Shown piece by piece: positions 3,040 through 49,779 of a DNA stretch of 49,779 nucleotides (its first letter is position 1; each line of letters begins with the position of its first letter). Both the position numbers and the translations under genes were made by a program. The stretch is from a virus. The stretch lies in the IMG/VR virus record IMGVR_UViG_3300017735_000014, positions 1 through 49,779 of that record; one strand, given 5' to 3'. The notes under the pieces were generated by a model. It worked only from the letters and a program-made list of their open reading frames with translations. It was not told where the DNA came from and did no database searches.

Positions 3040-3396
3040 ATGGGTTATAATATAACGGACAAAGACTTTAAACTTGTAGAAAACGACGGCGATAGTGACT
3101 TTGCAGAATTTTATGGTGTTAAACTTACAAGTGGTAAATACAGAAACATCATTGTTATTTATGGCAAGGTATCTGTACAAGAACTAGACACGGATGAAGC
3201 TAAATTATCGTTTACATATGCTATTCAGGATCCAGCAGATTTTGACTTAGAGTTTTTACAAAGTGATGAAGATTTTAATAATTATTTAGGCGCAGTTTTG
3301 GAATATTTTATTCAAGACAGCTTAGAAAATAAAGAGGCAACAATTGGAAATATCAAATCAACTACCGACGCACATACTGAATCATCTCCTCAATAA
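3040..3396 (+). CDS. Small acidic conserved protein between uvsX and helicase
   Basis: This 118-residue acidic protein has no membrane segment. Alternating strands (RNIIVIYGKVSV) lead into an Asp/Glu-rich part with FNNYLGAVLEYFI. The position between uvsX and the gp41 helicase is shared with related marine T4-like phages, from memory. No catalytic motif is visible and the function is unknown. It begins one base after the uvsX stop region, with GAGGGATAA as RBS, and its last 53 nt overlap the helicase gene in another frame. Confidence 0.75.
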   Translation: MGYNITDKDFKLVENDGDSDFAEFYGVKLTSGKYRNIIVIYGKVSVQELDTDEAKLSFTYAIQDPADFDLEFLQSDEDFNNYLGAVLEYFIQDSLENKEATIGNIKSTTDAHTESSPQ

Positions 3397-33502: not shown

Positions 33503-33774
33503 TGCCGGAATTAGGAATATCCGATATGATTTCCCAATATGGATTTCCTATTGTAATGGCTGTTGGCCTTGGGTACTTTATATATTATGTTTGGAAATTT
33601 ATAGGTGATCATATTGAACCACAACTAGATGAAATGCATATAGCACTTATTAGAGTAATTGATCAGACCAGAATGTTAGATCAAGATATGATCAGATTAC
33701 AGCAGAAAGTTAATGTTGTATTAGAGTATAGAGAAAGGCAAAAGCAAAAGAAGGGAGAATTGAATGAAAAATAA
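33502..33774 (+). CDS. Small membrane protein, paired with the previous gene
   Basis: This 90-residue protein has one transmembrane segment (YGFPIVMAVGLGYFIYYVWKFI, residues 13-34). A predicted coiled coil (DQTRMLDQDMIRLQQKV) and a Lys/Arg-rich tail follow. The order TM then coil mirrors the 33206 product, so the two may form a hetero-oligomer. A holin-like role is possible because lysozyme lies upstream, and an assembly platform for the curli-like exporter is an alternative. Stop overlaps csgF by 11 nt. Confidence 0.65.
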   Translation: MPELGISDMISQYGFPIVMAVGLGYFIYYVWKFIGDHIEPQLDEMHIALIRVIDQTRMLDQDMIRLQQKVNVVLEYRERQKQKKGELNEK

Positions 33775-34252
33775 AATAAGAATAAGTGGATTTGTATTAT
33801 TTATGTTTACTTTTAATAGTGCATTGTCTGCAGACATAGTACACACTTTTAAAAATCCATCATTTAGTGGAATAGGCACTGGTGCTCATTATTTAACAAT
33901 TGAAAATCAGGAATCAAGTAGAAAGAAAGCTATTAGAGATGCTCTAGAGGCCGCTGAAAAGGCAGCACAAAGAGAAGCTGATAATTCAACAATGGCCAAA
34001 TTCATTAGAAATTTAGAAAGCAGAATATATGCTCAAATGTCTAAACAACTAGTGGAGTCCATGTTTTCGAATGATTCAGCTACTTCATTTGGCTCATTTA
34101 CTTTAGAAGGTAACGTAGTCACTTGGGAAGTAATTACTGCAGAGGATGGCAGTGAGTGGATTAAAATGACCATAGTAGATTCAGACGGGACTGAAACTGT
34201 TATAGAGATTCCAGTAGGAACAGGTAATTATGCACAAGATATTGACGGCTAG
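33764..34252 (+). CDS. csgF: CsgF-like curli assembly protein
   Basis: This 162-residue protein has a Sec signal (FVLFMFTFNSALSAD; mature start near residue 24). The CsgF N-terminal signature follows, FKNPSFSGIGTGAHYLTIENQ, which parallels E. coli [20 protein letters not shown]. Next comes an Ala/Glu-rich helix and a beta tail with VVTWEVITAEDG. CsgF sits in the mouth of the CsgG pore and couples secretion to nucleation of curli. Its immediate neighbour is csgG, with a 23-nt overlap. The family call rests on the N-terminus and context. Confidence 0.87.
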   Translation: MKNKIRISGFVLFMFTFNSALSADIVHTFKNPSFSGIGTGAHYLTIENQESSRKKAIRDALEAAEKAAQREADNSTMAKFIRNLESRIYAQMSKQLVESMFSNDSATSFGSFTLEGNVVTWEVITAEDGSEWIKMTIVDSDGTETVIEIPVGTGNYAQDIDG

Positions 34253-35195
34253 TCTATTAACATTATTAATAAGTGGTTGTGCTTCTGTTCCACAATGGAG
34301 TAATGATCCACAAGATTGCAATGATAAAGCAGGAAAGTATAGTGAAGGTTATCAAAGACATTTACAGATGGGGCTTCAAAAAACAATGTCCCGTAAATAT
34401 ATCTGCGTTGATGTAGCAGAGGCTGTAAGGTTACCGTCTTTTATAGATTTATTAAATCTTCCAGATGCTAAAGAAAAACCTATTGTTGCAGTATATAATT
34501 TTGGCGATAAAACAGGCCAAAGAAAATCAAGAGAAGGCATAGCAGACTTCTCAACAGCTGTTACCCAAGGGGGTACAGAAATGATTATTGACGCTCTGAA
34601 AACTGCAGGTGGTGGTACCTGGTTCAGAGTAGTAGAAAGACAAGGCATTGATAATCTGGTAAGAGAAAGACAGATTATTAGAAGTGCTAGAACTGAGTTT
34701 GCGGATCCCAAGAAAGGCCCGCAACAATTGAATCCACTTTTGTTCGCCGGTATGATTATCGAAGGTGGAATTATAGGATATGATACCAATTTATTAACGG
34801 GTGGCCGAGGCGCACGGACACTAGGAATTGGTTTCTCTAAACGATACCGAAAGGACGTAGTGACTGTTTCTATTAGAGCAGTATCAGTTCTAACGGGTGA
34901 AGTATTATTAAACGTCCAATCAAGAAAGACAGTTTTAAGCTATGGAAGTTCGGGAGACGTCTTCCGATTTATAGAGCAAGGAACTCAATTAATTGAATAC
35001 GAAGACGGTGTGGGAAATAATGAGAGTGTGACATATGCGGTACGAACAGCCATTGAGGCTGGAGTACTGGAACTAATATACCAGGGCCATGATAGAGGCT
35101 TCTGGGTAATAGAGAATGGACATCGACACCCCCATCAGCATGATGGTAAAAACGATAAACATTCTATAAAAGAGGAAAATAACGAAAATGAATAA
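34230..35195 (+). CDS. csgG: CsgG-like curli secretion channel lipoprotein
   Basis: This 321-residue protein has a lipoprotein signal (LTASLLTLLISGC, lipid on Cys17). The CsgG core contains VAVYNFGDKTGQ, FSTAVTQGGTEMIIDAL, RVVERQGIDNLVRERQII, LLFAGMIIEGGIIGYDTN and SRKTVLSYGSSGDVFRFI. These align with E. coli CsgG throughout. The pore-constriction loop keeps Phe in DFSTAV, but the neighbouring Asn is Asp and the usual Tyr is not conserved. The C-terminus is a His/Asp-rich tail (HRHPHQHDGKNDKH). It would form a nonameric outer-membrane channel for unfolded amyloid subunits. It overlaps the next gene by 8 nt. Confidence 0.93.
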   Translation: MHKILTASLLTLLISGCASVPQWSNDPQDCNDKAGKYSEGYQRHLQMGLQKTMSRKYICVDVAEAVRLPSFIDLLNLPDAKEKPIVAVYNFGDKTGQRKSREGIADFSTAVTQGGTEMIIDALKTAGGGTWFRVVERQGIDNLVRERQIIRSARTEFADPKKGPQQLNPLLFAGMIIEGGIIGYDTNLLTGGRGARTLGIGFSKRYRKDVVTVSIRAVSVLTGEVLLNVQSRKTVLSYGSSGDVFRFIEQGTQLIEYEDGVGNNESVTYAVRTAIEAGVLELIYQGHDRGFWVIENGHRHPHQHDGKNDKHSIKEENNENE

Positions 35196-35931
35196 ACTAT
35201 ATAGTATAGCCCTTATGGGTCTATTAGTGTCGACATCTTTTGTTTTCGCACAAGCCACTGATGATAACGAAATTAAGATTACACAATCTGGTGATACACT
35301 AGAGTTGTATATTGATCAAGTTGGGTTTGGTAATAAAATTGGAGGTGACGATTTTTCAAGCGGCAGTACTTCAATGAATATTACTGGGTCTAGTTTAATG
35401 TTTGATCTAGATTTCGTAGGTAACCAAAACATTTTGTTTGGCCCGCTAGAAGCAGATAGTAGTAATTATACACTATCTTATTCAGGTGATTCAAACGAAA
35501 TAGATTGGAATATCGGATATAGCGGTAGTGCAGATGATTCTGATATAAACTTTAGTGTAACTGGAGACAGTAATACTTTTGATTTAGATCAAGGTTATGC
35601 AGCAAGTGCAGAAAGACTAGATGCTGATTTAGTGTTAATTGGAGACAATAACATTTTTGATGTAGATTGGGAGAGTGATGATAATGTTTGGAACCTGGAT
35701 ATTACTGGGGGATCAAATGATATTAATACTTTACAAAATGATGGTGCTCAAAATTTGGAGTTTACATTAGTAGGTGATGGCGGAGACGTCGATATAAACC
35801 AAATTTCAGGAACTTGTGCAACAGGTGCTGGAACTGCGTGCTCAACTCCTAATGCGAACATCGTTTTAGATGTAACATCAGACAATGCAATTATTACAAT
35901 TACACAAAAAGACGGCAACGGCGACTCTTAG
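35188..35931 (+). CDS. Curlin-like amyloid repeat protein 1
   Basis: This 247-residue protein has a Sec signal (LYSIALMGLLVSTSFVFAQA). About eight irregular repeats of 20-25 residues follow, with a core of strand-GDxNxxD-strand (for example VTGDSNTFDLDQG and LIGDNNIFDVDW). The first repeat, ITQSGDTLELYIDQVGFGN, has the Gln/Gly/Asn spacing of CsgA/CsgB. The chain is acidic. A Cys pair lies near the C-terminus (GTCATGAGTACSTP) and the end is ITITQKDG. It is the likely exported fibre subunit or nucleator of the operon. No Arg/Lys clusters or enzymatic motifs. Confidence 0.82.
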   Translation: MNKLYSIALMGLLVSTSFVFAQATDDNEIKITQSGDTLELYIDQVGFGNKIGGDDFSSGSTSMNITGSSLMFDLDFVGNQNILFGPLEADSSNYTLSYSGDSNEIDWNIGYSGSADDSDINFSVTGDSNTFDLDQGYAASAERLDADLVLIGDNNIFDVDWESDDNVWNLDITGGSNDINTLQNDGAQNLEFTLVGDGGDVDINQISGTCATGAGTACSTPNANIVLDVTSDNAIITITQKDGNGDS

Positions 35932-37000
35932 TCTCTGCCTATTACTCATCAGTGGGGTTAGTTTAGCGGCTGACCCCATAGGTGGCGTAAGGGAAGTTAC
36001 AGGTAATACTTCAATACTTCGTGATAAAGAAGAAATTGAAGCTAAAGAAAAGCAAGATATAGAACTCTATGACCAGGCCCAAACGGGTAAAGGTAGAATG
36101 TTAATAGAGTTTTTAGATAAAGCAGAACTTCAACTTAAAGAACATTCACTCGTTTTAATAGACGAGATCTACTACGACCCAAATCCTAACCTATCTAAAA
36201 TGTCTATGAAAATGGTTATGGGTACTGCACGTTTTGCATCAGGTAGATTAGGCCTTGTAAATAAAGCCAATATAGACATACAAACTCCTACTGCTACTAT
36301 TGCTGTAAGAGGAACAGATTTTACTACAACCATAGATGAATTAGGTAGAAGCCTAATCATTTTACTACCAGATGAAAATGGTGATCCATCTGGAGAAATT
36401 ATTGTAACAAATGAGGCAGGATCAGTTACACTTAATGAAGCTTATGCAGCGACCATGGTAGCTACCTTGGATTCGGCTCCAACATCTAGTGCTATAATCC
36501 AAGGTATCACACCTGCTTTAATTGATAATATGTTCATAGTAAATCCTCCTGCAGAAATAAAAGACAGGATTCAAGAAGAACTGCAAGATGAAAATAATGA
36601 TGATCAAGGATTGCTTGATATAGACTTTTTAGAATTTACTGAACTAGAGGAAGAAGCACTAGATGAAGAGTTTTTAGATGAAACAACTGAGCTAGATGTA
36701 GATGAATTAAGTGTTGAATACTTAATAGATGTGTTGGATATAGTTGATTCTGGTGATTTATTTGATACACTAGGAGAATTTGATATAAAAGGTGGCATGA
36801 GGGGATTTAATGATGAATCACAATATAATATATTCCTTAGAGATGGAGACCTGGTATTATATCGTAATATAAACGGCAGTATAGATATACAAATTGGAGC
36901 TGGAAATAACTTTACACTTAATACTACAACTCCAACTTGGGAAGGCACAATAACAGGTAATGAAGGCGAAGACATATTAATAGTGATTAATCAACAATGA
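35885..37000 (+). CDS. FecR-domain exported protein
   Basis: This 371-residue protein starts at ATG 35885, 47 nt inside the previous gene. A signal segment (TATLSLCLLLISGVSLAA) precedes a FecR domain: VREVTGNTSILRD at the start, then LIEFLDKAELQLKEHS and PTATIAVRGTDFTTTI near residues 135-147. A long acidic region and a C-terminal beta part with GAGNNFTLNTTT follow. FecR domains in this arrangement usually pair with curli-type or cyclase genes rather than sigma factors. It is probably periplasmic or surface-linked. ATGA overlap leads to the next gene. Confidence 0.85.
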   Translation: MQLLQLHKKTATATLSLCLLLISGVSLAADPIGGVREVTGNTSILRDKEEIEAKEKQDIELYDQAQTGKGRMLIEFLDKAELQLKEHSLVLIDEIYYDPNPNLSKMSMKMVMGTARFASGRLGLVNKANIDIQTPTATIAVRGTDFTTTIDELGRSLIILLPDENGDPSGEIIVTNEAGSVTLNEAYAATMVATLDSAPTSSAIIQGITPALIDNMFIVNPPAEIKDRIQEELQDENNDDQGLLDIDFLEFTELEEEALDEEFLDETTELDVDELSVEYLIDVLDIVDSGDLFDTLGEFDIKGGMRGFNDESQYNIFLRDGDLVLYRNINGSIDIQIGAGNNFTLNTTTPTWEGTITGNEGEDILIVINQQ

Positions 37001-37719
37001 GTATAAATAAATACATGAAGAAATTAATTATAACATTCTTTTTACTGCAAATAAGTATATTACAAGCAGATGATAATGTTATATCCGTAGAACAATCTGG
37101 AGATAACCTTGTATTGGGTATAGATCAGATAGGATATAACAATCAAATAATAATGAAAGATGATAATTCATATATTACATCATCTAGTTTATCAATGTAT
37201 CTAGTACAGCACAATGATAGCAATAGCATTAATAAAATTATATTTGATGAAGTAAGTGGCTCGGGTAATCAAATAAAACTGGCTCAAGGAGTTGCATGGA
37301 ATACTCTTGATTCTGATACAGATTTAACTTGGTGGGCAGATGGTTATGAAGGTGGAGGCCATGAAATAGATATTACACTATATGGTGATAATAATGATAT
37401 GGCAGTACAACAAACAAACCAAGGGTCTACAACGGGTCATAGTTTTGATTTGCATCTAGCTGGAGATGGTAATAAGGTTCAAGTCAAACAACAAAGTGAT
37501 GGTGCTAAAAATCTAAATTTAACAATTTATAATGATTATAATGATGTATTTGTTCGTCAAAAAGGAAATAATACGAGTCATACTGCAACCATAACGCTTG
37601 ATGGATTATATGGAACAGACTTAACATTAAAACAAATGAGTACTACATCACAGACATATAACTTATCGCAAACATGCATGACGGTTGGTGGTTGTGCTGT
37701 AAGTGTGACGCAAGATTAA
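36997..37719 (+). CDS. Curlin-like amyloid repeat protein 2
   Basis: This 240-residue protein from ATG 36997 (ATGA coupling) has a signal IITFFLLQISILQA; ATG 37015 would give a shorter n-region. About seven repeats follow with the Q-G-N pattern: VEQSGDNLVLGIDQIGYNN, then LYGDNNDMAVQQTNQG and LAGDGNKVQVKQQSDG. It ends TCMTVGGCAVSVTQD, sharing the two-Cys and TQD end with the first curlin-like protein, from which it probably arose by duplication. It is closer to classical curlins in its Gln-rich repeats. TAATG with the cyclase gene. Confidence 0.83.
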   Translation: MSINKYMKKLIITFFLLQISILQADDNVISVEQSGDNLVLGIDQIGYNNQIIMKDDNSYITSSSLSMYLVQHNDSNSINKIIFDEVSGSGNQIKLAQGVAWNTLDSDTDLTWWADGYEGGGHEIDITLYGDNNDMAVQQTNQGSTTGHSFDLHLAGDGNKVQVKQQSDGAKNLNLTIYNDYNDVFVRQKGNNTSHTATITLDGLYGTDLTLKQMSTTSQTYNLSQTCMTVGGCAVSVTQD

Positions 37720-39554
37720 TGAAATACATAACTTCTATATGGGCTACTCTGGCCATTGTGATACTAGGTGTTGTAATAAGAGTATCTGATCCTTCATTTC
37801 TACAGCAATTAAGGCTTACAGTCTTTGATCAATACATAACATCTATAGAAGAAACAAAGTCAAATGATATTGTATTGTTAAATATATCAGAAGAAACTTT
37901 AGGCGTTCACGGCCAATACCCATTCCCACGACATATATATGCACAGATGATTTCTGACTTGCGTAACGCTGGTGCTGGAATGATTGGATTCACTATCATG
38001 TACCCAGAGGCCGATAGATTCGGTGGTGATGAAGTCTTCGCATCTTGGATTAAAGATAATGGTATTATATTATCACAAGATGCAGACCCAAGTGGTAGAA
38101 GCTCTACTGCGCCTTATGTTGGTTCAGCAGTATTTGGTACTGGAGACCCAATGGATTGGGTAGTACGTTATGATGGATTGGTTACCAATATACCTGCATT
38201 AGAAGAAGGAGCTTGGGGCCATGGATTAATTAATGCAATGCCTGAAATAGATGGTGTTGCAAGAAGAATACCACTACTATCTCAAATTAATAATCAACTC
38301 TATCCGTCATTTAGTTTGGAGACTATAAGAGTTATGCAGAATAAGCCGTCATATACCGTTAAGGTAAATGATACAGGTATTGAAGAAATTATACTTAGGC
38401 CCTTTCAAATACCAACAGGCAATCAAGGGCAAATCTGGTTAAATCCTAATATTAAGTTTACGGAAATAAACTACGGGTCCAGTGAGTTACCAAATCTAAT
38501 GGGGAAATCTGTACTGATTGGTTTAACTGCTTCTGGCTTGGCATCACAGATTCCAACTCCAAGTGGTATGAAGTCTGCACATTCATTACAGGCTTCTGCC
38601 ATTCAGACCATCGTTGATGGTACTCAGATAACTCGTCCTTTGTGGGCCGATATACTAGAGATAGTGAGTATGATAGTGGGTTCGATACTGATTGTGGTGG
38701 CAGTATATTATCTTCCGATATGGATTTCAGGTACCACATTCTTGATCCTTTCAAGTGTTGTTGTAGGTGGATTTATTTATATATGGCAGAGCTACAGTAT
38801 ACTGTTGTCCCCTTTAAGTACCTTAATATTATATATAATAACCTTTACCTCAGCCGCGTTCAATAATTTCTATAAACAGTTTGTTTTAAGGCAACAGATA
38901 AAGAAACAATTTGAAACATACCTTGATCCTAGGCAGGTATATCTATTGCAGAAGAGTCCTGAATTATTAAAGCTCGGGGGTGAGCGTAGAGAGATGACTT
39001 TCTTGTTTATGGATATATGTGGATTCACTCCAGTATCAGAGCACTATAAAAACAACGACGATCCAGAAGGACTTGTATTACTAATCAATGATTTCTTGGA
39101 TAATATGACTAAAATAATTATGAATAATGGTGGAACAATAGATAAATATATGGGCGACTGTATAATGGCATTCTGGAACGCACCATTAGACTGTCCAAAT
39201 CACGCAGATATGGCTGTTAAATCAGCTCTTGAAATAGAGGCAAAAACAGATGAACTTAGACGAAAATATAAAGAACAGGGTTTACCCCCCATCAATGTTG
39301 GAACTGGCATCAATACTGGCGATTGCATTGTTGGTAATATGGGTAGTGAGTCTCGGTTTGATTACTCTGTCATCGGAGACGCAGTCAACCTTGCCGCAAG
39401 ACTCGAAGCCACAGCAGCAAGAGGAGAGTACATCAACTGTCCAACCATCATCTCCAGTTTCACAATGGAACAACTTACCGACTTTAAACCGAGACCAATA
39501 GGTGATATAACGGTTAAAGGTAAGAAAGAGCGTATTAAAATATACGCACCATAG
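37719..39554 (+). CDS. CHASE2-domain membrane adenylate/guanylate cyclase
   Basis: This 611-residue protein has an N-terminal TM (WATLAIVILGVVIRV) and a CHASE2 extracytoplasmic sensor (about residues 25-300, with QYPFPRHIYAQMI and GLINAMPEIDGVARRIPL). Three TMs follow at about 310-395, then a class III cyclase domain. Its metal sites are FMDICGFT (Asp near 432) and YMGDCIMAFW (Asp near 483). The purine-selecting Asp is in FDYSVIGD (near 547), and NLAARLE supplies the transition-state Asn and Arg. All expected residues are present, so it should be active; Asp at the purine site favours cAMP. It closes the curli-like operon. Confidence 0.93.
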   Translation: MKYITSIWATLAIVILGVVIRVSDPSFLQQLRLTVFDQYITSIEETKSNDIVLLNISEETLGVHGQYPFPRHIYAQMISDLRNAGAGMIGFTIMYPEADRFGGDEVFASWIKDNGIILSQDADPSGRSSTAPYVGSAVFGTGDPMDWVVRYDGLVTNIPALEEGAWGHGLINAMPEIDGVARRIPLLSQINNQLYPSFSLETIRVMQNKPSYTVKVNDTGIEEIILRPFQIPTGNQGQIWLNPNIKFTEINYGSSELPNLMGKSVLIGLTASGLASQIPTPSGMKSAHSLQASAIQTIVDGTQITRPLWADILEIVSMIVGSILIVVAVYYLPIWISGTTFLILSSVVVGGFIYIWQSYSILLSPLSTLILYIITFTSAAFNNFYKQFVLRQQIKKQFETYLDPRQVYLLQKSPELLKLGGERREMTFLFMDICGFTPVSEHYKNNDDPEGLVLLINDFLDNMTKIIMNNGGTIDKYMGDCIMAFWNAPLDCPNHADMAVKSALEIEAKTDELRRKYKEQGLPPINVGTGINTGDCIVGNMGSESRFDYSVIGDAVNLAARLEATAARGEYINCPTIISSFTMEQLTDFKPRPIGDITVKGKKERIKIYAP

Positions 39555-46899: not shown

Positions 46900-46924
46900 A
46901 GGGACCCTTCGGGGTCCCTTTTTT
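46900..46924 (+). terminator. Intrinsic terminator of the gp32 unit
   Basis: AGGGACCC (46900-46907), loop TTCG, and GGGTCCCT (46912-46919) are followed by a six-T tract ending at 46924. The UUCG loop closed by C-G is exceptionally stable. It ends + strand transcription just before the convergent tape-measure gene. Confidence 0.95.
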
Positions 46925-48641
46925 ATCTTGCGAATGAACCAAAGCCAAAGTGTAGGAAATCAGAAGTCCTACTAGGTCTATGGCCTTGAATAACTGTATT
47001 AGAAGTGTTACCACTATTTGAAGTATTAGAAGATGATACCTGTGTAACCACATTATTCTCTGAGCCAGTCTGTACCCCTGCTAGAGCGTTCTCAGCCGAC
47101 ATATCAGATAATTGTGCACCTGTATCAATCTCTGGTATCTCCATAGTTGCCATATCAGGCATTGCAAACCCTTCAACTTCACCAACACCTTCGGGTTGAG
47201 CAGCTGCTTCATTTGCGGCATCTATCTTGGCTTGTTCAGCTTTAGCCTCTAATTCAATCTTCTTCTTCTCGGCATTATTAGTGTCCATCTTAGGAATTTC
47301 AGGTATATCAAACTCAAACCCTAAGAACTTACCAAACTTCTCTACCATACCTGTAATAAAGTTGACTATGGAACCGATGAAATTAACTACTGTTGCGAAT
47401 GCATCTTGTAAGTAAGCAAGGCCGAGCATCATTACATCAAAGATAGATGTAAATCCTAATGCGTCTCTTATTTTTACTAGAGCAATACCAATGATAGCAA
47501 AGAGTGCAGCGATGGCAAGAATAGGTAATAAGATAGGTGCCATGGCTATTAGAATAGGTACCATTGCACTCATCATACCTACTAGTGCAGATATCATTGC
47601 TGGAACAAAGGAGGTTAACATAAACACTCTAAAGACCATAAAGGCTTTTCTTAATCCATTAAATACCTTCATAAATGCTCCACCTACAGACGACATCATA
47701 CTAGATAGACTGCCCATAATGGTTGGAACAAAGGAGGTTAACATAAACACTCGGAATGTTTTAAAGCCTGCAACAAGAGCACGTATTGGTTTCATCATAG
47801 TAGCACCAACAGCTTTCATTTTTTCACCCAAGCTGAATAGCATATCTTTAACAAAGGTTCCTTTCATAAAGGTACCGAAGACCTTAAATGCAGTTGCAAC
47901 TTTTCTTACAGCCCTGAGTGCCTTACCTAGGTTTAATAATAACATACCACCAAGGATTCCGCCAATTATACCAAGGTTGTCTTTTAATACATCTGCGGCA
48001 CCACTAAAGTCTCCAGCAAATACTTTCTCTACCACATCTACCATATCTTGAACAAATCCGATGACAGCTTTAATACCCTTTGCAAAGGCTTCTGGATTTA
48101 ATATGAGTGTGGCTAGACCAGCTATACCTGCAAGGAAGCCGCCAGTTTCTTTAACCTTACCTATTCCTTTATCAAATGAATTAGACATTTTTAATAGGAG
48201 AGAATTGGCTTCTTCTTGTTTCTTTATAGCTTCTCTTTTATCTTCTTCTGATTGGATACCCTCTTGTAATGCAGCAAGTTGGTCGTTTGTTCTGTCTATT
48301 AACCCTTGGTCGAATTTAAGGCCCTGTTCTTGCAGTGATACCTGTTCTTGCATGATGGCATTTAAACTATCAAACTGTTCTCTTATGGCCTCTGTTTCTT
48401 CATTAGAGTTCATTCCCATAAACCCTTCAAGACCCTGCAGTGATTTCTGCATATCAACAGTAGCAGTAACTTGCGAAGTAACATTAGATGATTGAGTTTT
48501 CATTGACTCAACTAATTCAGTTAAACTTTTAGCTTGTTTTTCAGCCGCCTTCTTGGCATCTTTACCACCAAACCCAGCCTCAACCTGTTTCATTGATAGC
48601 TTGTTATTGCCACCTTTCATCTTGTTACTTTCGTCAGCCAT
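46923..48641 (-). CDS. Tail tape-measure / baseplate hub protein (gp29-like)
   Basis: This 572-residue minus-strand protein is about the length of T4 gp29 (590). The N-terminal third is a charged coiled coil (ANSLLLKMSNSFDKGIGK nearby). The middle is highly hydrophobic and helical, with repeats containing FRVFMLTSFVP and LLPILAIAALFAIIGIALV. A Glu/Ala-rich region and a Ser/Asn-rich C-terminus follow. This coil-plus-hydrophobic order and the position after gp26/gp51-like genes fit a tape measure. A direct repeat of 29 bp lies 123 bp apart. The identity is inferred from layout and context, not a motif. Confidence 0.75.
   Translation of the reverse strand: MADESNKMKGGNNKLSMKQVEAGFGGKDAKKAAEKQAKSLTELVESMKTQSSNVTSQVTATVDMQKSLQGLEGFMGMNSNEETEAIREQFDSLNAIMQEQVSLQEQGLKFDQGLIDRTNDQLAALQEGIQSEEDKREAIKKQEEANSLLLKMSNSFDKGIGKVKETGGFLAGIAGLATLILNPEAFAKGIKAVIGFVQDMVDVVEKVFAGDFSGAADVLKDNLGIIGGILGGMLLLNLGKALRAVRKVATAFKVFGTFMKGTFVKDMLFSLGEKMKAVGATMMKPIRALVAGFKTFRVFMLTSFVPTIMGSLSSMMSSVGGAFMKVFNGLRKAFMVFRVFMLTSFVPAMISALVGMMSAMVPILIAMAPILLPILAIAALFAIIGIALVKIRDALGFTSIFDVMMLGLAYLQDAFATVVNFIGSIVNFITGMVEKFGKFLGFEFDIPEIPKMDTNNAEKKKIELEAKAEQAKIDAANEAAAQPEGVGEVEGFAMPDMATMEIPEIDTGAQLSDMSAENALAGVQTGSENNVVTQVSSSNTSNSGNTSNTVIQGHRPSRTSDFLHFGFGSFAR
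47601..47752 (-). repeat. 29-bp direct repeat inside the tape-measure gene
   Basis: The 29 bases at 47601-47629 recur identically at 47724-47752, exactly 123 bp (41 codons) apart, and encode FRVFMLTSFVP twice in the protein. It marks a duplicated hydrophobic module. Confidence 0.9.
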
Positions 48642-48646
48642 TTTTA

Positions 48647-48763
48647 TTAATCCTTAAATTTGTTGTCTATCCAACATTTACCGTAATATAATATACCTAA
48701 CCAAATTGAAAATAAAACACCATCAACATATGATAGTGAATCCCATGCACTAACCGGATCCAT
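48647..48763 (-). CDS. 38-residue membrane protein
   Basis: The minus-strand ATG at 48763-48761 shares TAATG with the preceding gene. The product has MDPVSAWDSLSYVDG and a hydrophobic helix VLFSIWLGILYYG, then a short charged tail KCWIDNKFKD. It lies 5 nt before the tape measure ATG, in a tightly coupled row. Function unknown. Confidence 0.6.
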   Translation of the reverse strand: MDPVSAWDSLSYVDGVLFSIWLGILYYGKCWIDNKFKD

Positions 48764-49086
48764 TATTTCTTACCCGAATATGCTTGAGCACCAAAGAAGG
48801 CAGCTACAATACCTGCAACAGCCACAAAATATGTTGGTGCCATACTACCCAATGTTTTTTGAGCTTCATCTAATCCTGCAAGTGAAGCAACTACTACAGC
48901 GAATGGATATAACAATAGTCCACCTAATGCAAACCATGTCATCTTGCGCTGCGCATCTCTCATTGCGTCTTGATCTTCTAGTTCTTTTTCTTTAAACTTT
49001 AAATAAAGTTCTTCTTCTTTTGTTGACACTTTACCGTCTCCATTAGTATCTGCCGGATGGTAATCTTTTTTAATTTCTTCACTCAT
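48763..49086 (-). CDS. EF-hand membrane protein (holin-like)
   Basis: This 107-residue protein has one canonical EF-hand loop, DTNGDGKVSTKE (Asp13 to Glu24). A charged linker follows, then two hydrophobic helices (WFALGGLLLYPFAVVVASLAG and YFVAVAGIVAAFFGAQAY). Calcium at the loop could regulate a membrane function. The two-helix layout suits a holin-like protein, but the tail-assembly context also allows a virion or assembly role. TAATG overlaps both sides. Confidence 0.75.
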   Translation of the reverse strand: MSEEIKKDYHPADTNGDGKVSTKEEELYLKFKEKELEDQDAMRDAQRKMTWFALGGLLLYPFAVVVASLAGLDEAQKTLGSMAPTYFVAVAGIVAAFFGAQAYSGKK

Positions 49087-49288
49087 TATTTTTTCATTTT
49101 CCTATTTTGTTCTGCAACACGCTCATTTTCTTCTTTAATCCATTGTTGGAGTAGGGCGACATATATCTCCCTTTCCCATGGTACCATATTTTCTAATTCA
49201 CTTAAACTATACTTATGGTGTTGCATCATTGCAAAGTTAGTTTTATAGTAGTTAACTAGAGTATCATGCGAAAGGCCTAGGTAAAAAA
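49086..49288 (-). CDS. gp51-like tail assembly protein, expressed by -1 frameshift
   Basis: Continuing from the slippery site, the frame reads FFYLGLSHDTLVNYYKTNF, then SLSELENMVPWEREIYVALL and a basic end KEENERVAEQNRKMKK. The ENM-PWEREIY pattern is one I associate with T4-like gp51-type proteins. There is no ATG, GTG or TTG for the first part; the only ATGs (49229 and 49226) lie inside and have no RBS. So it is most simply read as the C-terminal extension of the gp26-like protein. See the frameshift entry. Confidence 0.65.
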
Positions 49289-49779
49289 ACTAGAGAGACC
49301 TCTTAGCTCTATCTCCTGTTCTGCCCCACATGATATACATGTAAACTCCATCTTATGTTCTAGTGAAGGAAGCTTTCCGAAAAACTCAGTAATCTTCGCA
49401 AACTGTTGAGAATTTAAACCATCAATAAACTCTTTGAGTTCCTTTTCGGTCTGATTCTCTGCATTCCATACTTCATCATCACTAAAAATATTTTCAATAC
49501 AATTGATAATCATCTTATATGTCATATCCATTTGTTTCTCTGGTTTAGTTGTCTCTGGATCAAACTCCAAAGATGCTACCAAATCAACAGAAGGATAATT
49601 AAATTCCATACCGATAGAATCGGTTAACATAATATGATTCTCTTTGGGTAATTCACCCATTTGAATCTCTTCAAGGTTAATCTGTACAGGTGTATTTGCA
49701 CTACACTCTCCACATTTTAAGTTAATATCTACAGTCTCGCCGACTGATTTTGATCTTAGTCTTAGGAATAATTCCTCTA
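49277..49779 (-). CDS. 26: gp26-like baseplate hub assembly protein, partial
   Basis: The gene enters from beyond the window edge on the minus strand; 166 C-terminal residues are visible. It begins ELFLRLRSKSVGETVDINLK, then the first CGEC pair. The middle is helical (IDGLNSQQFAKITEFFGKL), and the second CISCG pair precedes a final LRGLSSFF. The CxxC-CxxC spacing and order fit T4-like gp26/baseplate hub assembly proteins. The two pairs may form one zinc site. Its frame ends with FFT-stop right after the slippery T-run. Confidence 0.75.
   Translation of the reverse strand, partial: EELFLRLRSKSVGETVDINLKCGECSANTPVQINLEEIQMGELPKENHIMLTDSIGMEFNYPSVDLVASLEFDPETTKPEKQMDMTYKMIINCIENIFSDDEVWNAENQTEKELKEFIDGLNSQQFAKITEFFGKLPSLEHKMEFTCISCGAEQEIELRGLSSFFT
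49283..49289 (-). other. Slippery heptamer T-TTT-TTT, putative -1 frameshift site
   Basis: Seven T residues read in the gp26-like frame as (AG)T-TTT-TTT, followed by ACC-TAG. Slipping by -1 on TTT TTT gives TAC-CTA-GGC and opens the 67-codon downstream frame. The zero-frame stop is 4 nt beyond the slip site. The layout matches programmed frameshifts of tail assembly chaperone genes upstream of tape measures. Confidence 0.7.

Follow-up and report, generated by a model that had tools for sequence, protein, structure and literature searches.

The window is a stretch of 49,779 nucleotides of DNA from a marine T4-like phage (IMG/VR record IMGVR_UViG_3300017735_000014). At its end, on the minus strand, lies the 3' part of a gp26-like gene of the T4_baseplate family (49277..49779), the putative short form TAC-N. 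Its frame belongs to PF12322 (E 1.1e-43, 149.9 bits against a cut-off of 24.5) and matches phrog_150 (E 3.9e-41). In this 0 frame the gene ends with GGT CTC TCT AGT TTT TTT ACC TAG, the stop (49279-49277) standing one codon past the heptamer T TTT TTT, a run of seven T (49283..49289, minus strand). A second frame of 67 codons opens exactly at the -1 position, in the T run at 49289 and immediately past a -1-frame TAG, and continues on the same strand to 49086 (49086..49289). Its translation, FFYLGLSHDTLVNYYKTNFAMMQHHKYSLSELENMVPWEREIYVALLQQWIKEENERVAEQNRKMKK, falls into phrog_634, baseplate hub assembly catalyst (E 1.9e-30, residues 2-66), and would form the gp51-like C-terminal part of a long form, TAC-NC. 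The gp51-like stop at 49086 overlaps the start of the next gene (TAATG). The preliminary description had read the junction in the same way: a gp26-like frame running into T-TTT-TTT-ACC-TAG, and a second frame in -1 that ends against the following gene. The start of gp26 lies outside the window; full lengths were taken from a contig identical to it over the shared part (L014), where gp26 has 239 amino acids and the fusion 303.

The next gene of the operon (48763..49086, minus strand) encodes a small membrane-like protein located between the chaperone gene and a large tail gene; it has hydrophobic stretches and an EF-hand-like motif, whose weak profile match is below the cut-off. The large gene (46923..48641, minus strand) encodes a 572-residue protein with four TM-like segments. 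From its size, position and hydrophobic segments it is plausibly the tape measure protein, and in several relatives the tail tube gene lies directly upstream of the chaperone gene. Profile searches gave no family match for the 572-residue protein, and PHROGs assigned none of the downstream large proteins to a tape measure family, the only match being a partial one to an endolysin domain in P-HM2. For kinship of the large protein with T4 gp29, BLASTP gave marginal matches only, the best at E 4.6e-4 (P-HM2 against T4 gp29). Elsewhere in the window, a run of open reading frames at 33764-39554 resembles by eye a curli-type secretion set (CsgF-like and CsgG-like proteins, curlin-like repeats), with candidate FecR-like and CHASE2/adenylate cyclase-like proteins in the same run.

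We gathered 157 non-redundant junctions from IMG/VR and from isolate genomes. At the lower end of the IMG/VR set gp51 is about 63-70% identical to the queries, and the isolates are more distant. The heptamer T_TTT_TTN, a canonical X_XXY_YYZ site followed by an open -1 frame, is present in 157/157, a count of loci that share kinship and do not amount to 157 independent trials; the queries started with the Phe pair, and a site displaced by several codons could have escaped them, although most search patterns lay further downstream. Its last base is C in 84 loci, T in 65, A in 6 and G in 2, and the 0-frame stop of gp26 follows after 0-1 codon in 150 of the 157. At the first Phe of the site the codon is invariably TTT (157/157), against a TTT share of 72% for Phe in the remaining, upstream part of gp26. 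Likewise, the codon preceding the site always ends in T, though it may encode Ser, Asp, Ala, Asn, Gly or Thr. The same layout is found in KVP40, K575, Aeromonas 65, phiM19, N34, P10VF, P-SSM2, S-PM2, Mosig, Melnitz, S-WAM1, S-H34 and P-HM2. Judged from these alignments, the junction pattern is not due to chance. The preliminary description had asked whether related T4-like phages conserve a slippery heptamer here, and they do: no orthologue with a normal start codon and without the slippery site was found among the Kyanoviridae-type marine phages, the KVP40-type phages, Aeromonas phage 65 and the phages of Sinorhizobium and Rhizobium.

Two further elements flank the site. On the 5' side, 9 nt upstream, there is a Shine-Dalgarno-like AAGAGG (49299..49304, minus strand), picked out by its conserved position and duplex energy. 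Over the set, the only peak of pairing with the 16S rRNA 3' end lies at positions -17 to -10 relative to the heptamer, with a mean of -5.9 kcal/mol against a background of -0.67, and the duplex energy is -4 or lower in 135/157 loci. As this pairing is partly due to the encoded Lys/Arg/Glu-Gly codons, it is suggestive of an upstream stimulator, short of proof.

On the 3' side, folding and pairing analysis places a candidate stem 6 nt past the heptamer: its 5' arm, GCCTTTCGCATG (49265..49276, minus strand), pairs at 10 of 12 positions with the 3' arm, CATGGGAAAGGG (49169..49180, minus strand). The 110 nt that begin at +12 fold with a mean z of -3.1, against -0.1 to -1.3 for adjacent segments. 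Measured against synonymous-codon shuffles, mean z comes to -2.2, with more pairing at +13 to +22 than in the shuffles in 67/83 loci. From 0.19 at +11, the probability of pairing climbs to 0.78 at +14, that is, about 6 nt past the heptamer. The partner on the 3' side depends on the clade: it lies at about +109-121 (as in the window, or with CCCTCTC and GAGAGGG as the arms, for instance), at about +55-72 in the S-WAM1 group, or in a local hairpin. These differences between clades account for the failure of RNAalifold to return a single consensus structure over 76 sequences. Taken alone, the window's 107-nt fold is unremarkable against dinucleotide shuffles (z -0.90). The long-range stem gave 46 covariation cells against 21 in shuffles when all clades were pooled, a count that mixes in sequences with other partners. 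Sliding the stem by 3 columns yields a similar 47-48 cells, at 41-47% paired cells against 74%, so covariation by itself argues only weakly for the stem. The dnaX gene of E. coli, a cellular gene with a -1 frameshift, has a comparable arrangement: an SD-like element about 10 nt upstream, an A_AAA_AAG heptamer and a downstream hairpin. That hairpin is local, in contrast to the long-range stem of part of our set.

In T4 itself the arrangement is different. Genes 26 and 51 diverge from a single intergenic gap, and at the homologue of the junction the end of T4 gp26 reads GAG TTC TTT GAG, with no slip site. T4 gp51 and its relatives belong to PF12322 over residues 1-201, and hhalign matches T4-type gp51 to the frameshift product over its full length, junction included (E 1e-25 over profile columns 15-291; E 1.5e-12 for the C-terminal part alone). 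All 13 searched genomes with gp51 in the -1 frame, including two Ackermannviridae, have one PF12322 gene, and all 5 T4-type genomes have two. In an unrooted tree, the T4-type 26 set and 51 set each cluster, separately from the frameshift set. By these comparisons, the long form of T4-type phages is a separate full-length gene, gene 51; the frameshift reading is supported by this dedicated long-form gene in the one large group that lacks the slip site. The window, which is a fragment, has the slip site, and in this it departs from the T4-type pair of two gp26-family genes. In one T4-type gene 51 (L223, 3001-3746) a stop comes after only about 120 codons while the tblastn match spans residues 1-247, which indicates a frame break or an insert. 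T4-type gp51 matched no solved structure by sequence, and its model (pLDDT 94.6) had no significant PDB match by fold, so fold kinship with other tail assembly chaperones finds no support in the predicted structure; the model of a window-like gp26 reached a pLDDT of 91.8.

Could gp51 be a separate small gene, begun at its own codon or by re-initiation past the gp26 stop? Public records do start it at an ATG, for example in P-SSM2, S-PM2, Mosig, Melnitz and KVP40, and several phages carry an ATG 4-6 codons past the slip site. In the window, the preliminary description had stated that gp51 has no usable start codon. An ATG is present at 49229; however, it is codon 21, the sole ATG near the beginning of the frame, and a start there would drop 20 conserved residues. 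In 89/157 loci, the window's sequence included, no ATG, GTG or TTG occurs in the -1 frame anywhere from the upstream stop through codon 19. Even so, mean dN over codons 2-19 is 0.195 and dS 1.30; in this stretch the -1 frame is open in 156/156 loci, whereas the 0 frame has stops in 156 of them and the +1 frame in 153. By its substitutions, then, the -1 frame behaves as coding sequence before any start codon is reached. Purifying selection on these codons excludes independent starts at the ATG as the principal route, and the invariant heptamer and the single joined chain of T4-type phages speak against a separate gene as well; we consider it highly improbable. A related observation concerns the deposited records: in five of them (L095, L096, L097, L099 and L100) gp51 begins at an internal ATG and conserved residues are missing, and in that of S-WAM1 (L098) gp51 is left unannotated.

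The run of T invites two other explanations. RNA polymerase could slip on it and add a base to some mRNAs, which would then be read in the gp51 frame, and a homopolymer of seven T is indeed present in the window and in 65/157 loci. But 84 loci have only T6C and eight others end in A (6) or G (2), which suits re-pairing of tRNAs better, and SD-like elements and RNA stems at such typical spacings act on ribosomes rather than on polymerase; transcriptional slippage seems to us slightly less probable even than a separate gene. A sequencing error or a decayed gene might also come to mind, a frame break in a homopolymer being the usual type of error. The same break recurs, however, in 157/157 separate metagenome and isolate sequences, together with selection on the -1 frame, and this refutes the idea for practical purposes entirely.

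The Ackermannviridae present a variant (L108 at 3070-3240, L109 and L116-L134). A gp51-like domain (phrog_9633, weakly phrog_634) lies past gp26 in the -1 frame, and the junction reads ATT TTC ATT TAA or GTT TTC ATC TGA, with no canonical heptamer; in one subgroup (L130-L132) it contains TAATG. Another kind of slippage and re-initiation are both candidate mechanisms there.

The frameshift reading of the gp26/gp51 junction is not in itself new. Vladimirov, Gautam and Davidson reportedly identified the tail assembly chaperones of T4-like phages in 2022; frameshifting is said to be conserved in several T4-like groups, and T4 to use separate genes 26 and 51. The -1 frameshift in T4-like tail chaperones and the gene-26/51 split are already known (Vladimirov, Gautam & Davidson, Virology 2022, 566:9-15), so the novelty that the preliminary description suggested falls away. 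In passages that cite this work, T4-like TAC-N genes carry poly-T slippery sequences (PMC12846349), and some T4-like phages instead have the long form as a fused gene beside a short one (PMC10274946). Both the T4-like chaperones (genes 26 and 51) and our locus have short and long forms with a common gp26-like part, and no difference in kind was found. Chaperones of the Vandenendeviridae and Andersonviridae also have a conserved poly-T -1 site that ends TAC-N, but their motif is GTTTTT and they are separate phage lineages (PMC12846349). In lambda, gpG and gpGT arise by -1 frameshifting and bind the tape measure protein; they share with our set a -1 shift close to where the short frame ends, a fixed C-terminal extension and, as proposed here, a tape measure role, and differ in protein family and slip site, which is T_TTT_TTN here (PMC5009743).

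What may be added to published work are the upstream and downstream stimulatory elements. Tentatively, and with rather less than even confidence, we see as the new part in cis a dnaX-like cassette whose stem start is fixed about 6 nt past the heptamer and whose 3' partner changed between clades, the T4 clade having lost the slip site after the long form became a gene of its own.

Altogether, a programmed -1 ribosomal frameshift very probably yields gp26 as the short form and gp26-51 as the long form, the T4-lineage version of lambda gpG/gpGT. All the comparative evidence fits this reading, which the preliminary description proposed: conservation of the heptamer, the purifying selection that acts on the -1 frame, the element upstream, significant downstream structure, and a long form that by sequence comparison is equivalent to T4 gp51. 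We infer the slippage, the slip rate and a role as chaperone, as follows. Most ribosomes would translate gp26 and terminate at the TAG one codon past the slip site; their product is the short form (239 amino acids in the near-identical L014). Pairing of AAGAGG with 16S rRNA and the RNA stem 6 nt past the heptamer would hold some of them; these would slip back by one base on T_TTT_TTT, enter the gp51 frame and make a long form of about 303 amino acids. By analogy with gpG and gpGT, both forms would then cover the tape measure protein and bring in subunits of the tail tube.

For genome annotation, this means that in many deposited cyanophage genomes the start of gp51 is wrong or gp51 has been missed, and with its candidate stimulatory elements the site lends itself well to a reporter assay. 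In the review of T4 tail assembly, gp26 and gp51 are hub assembly chaperones, gp51 being essential and absent from the particle (PMC3004832). A long-form chaperone would offer a reason why T4 gene 51 is required for tail assembly and yet missing from the particle. Over a wide set of marine phages and phages of soil bacteria, the comparison bears out for T4-like phages the two-form chaperone logic of lambda.
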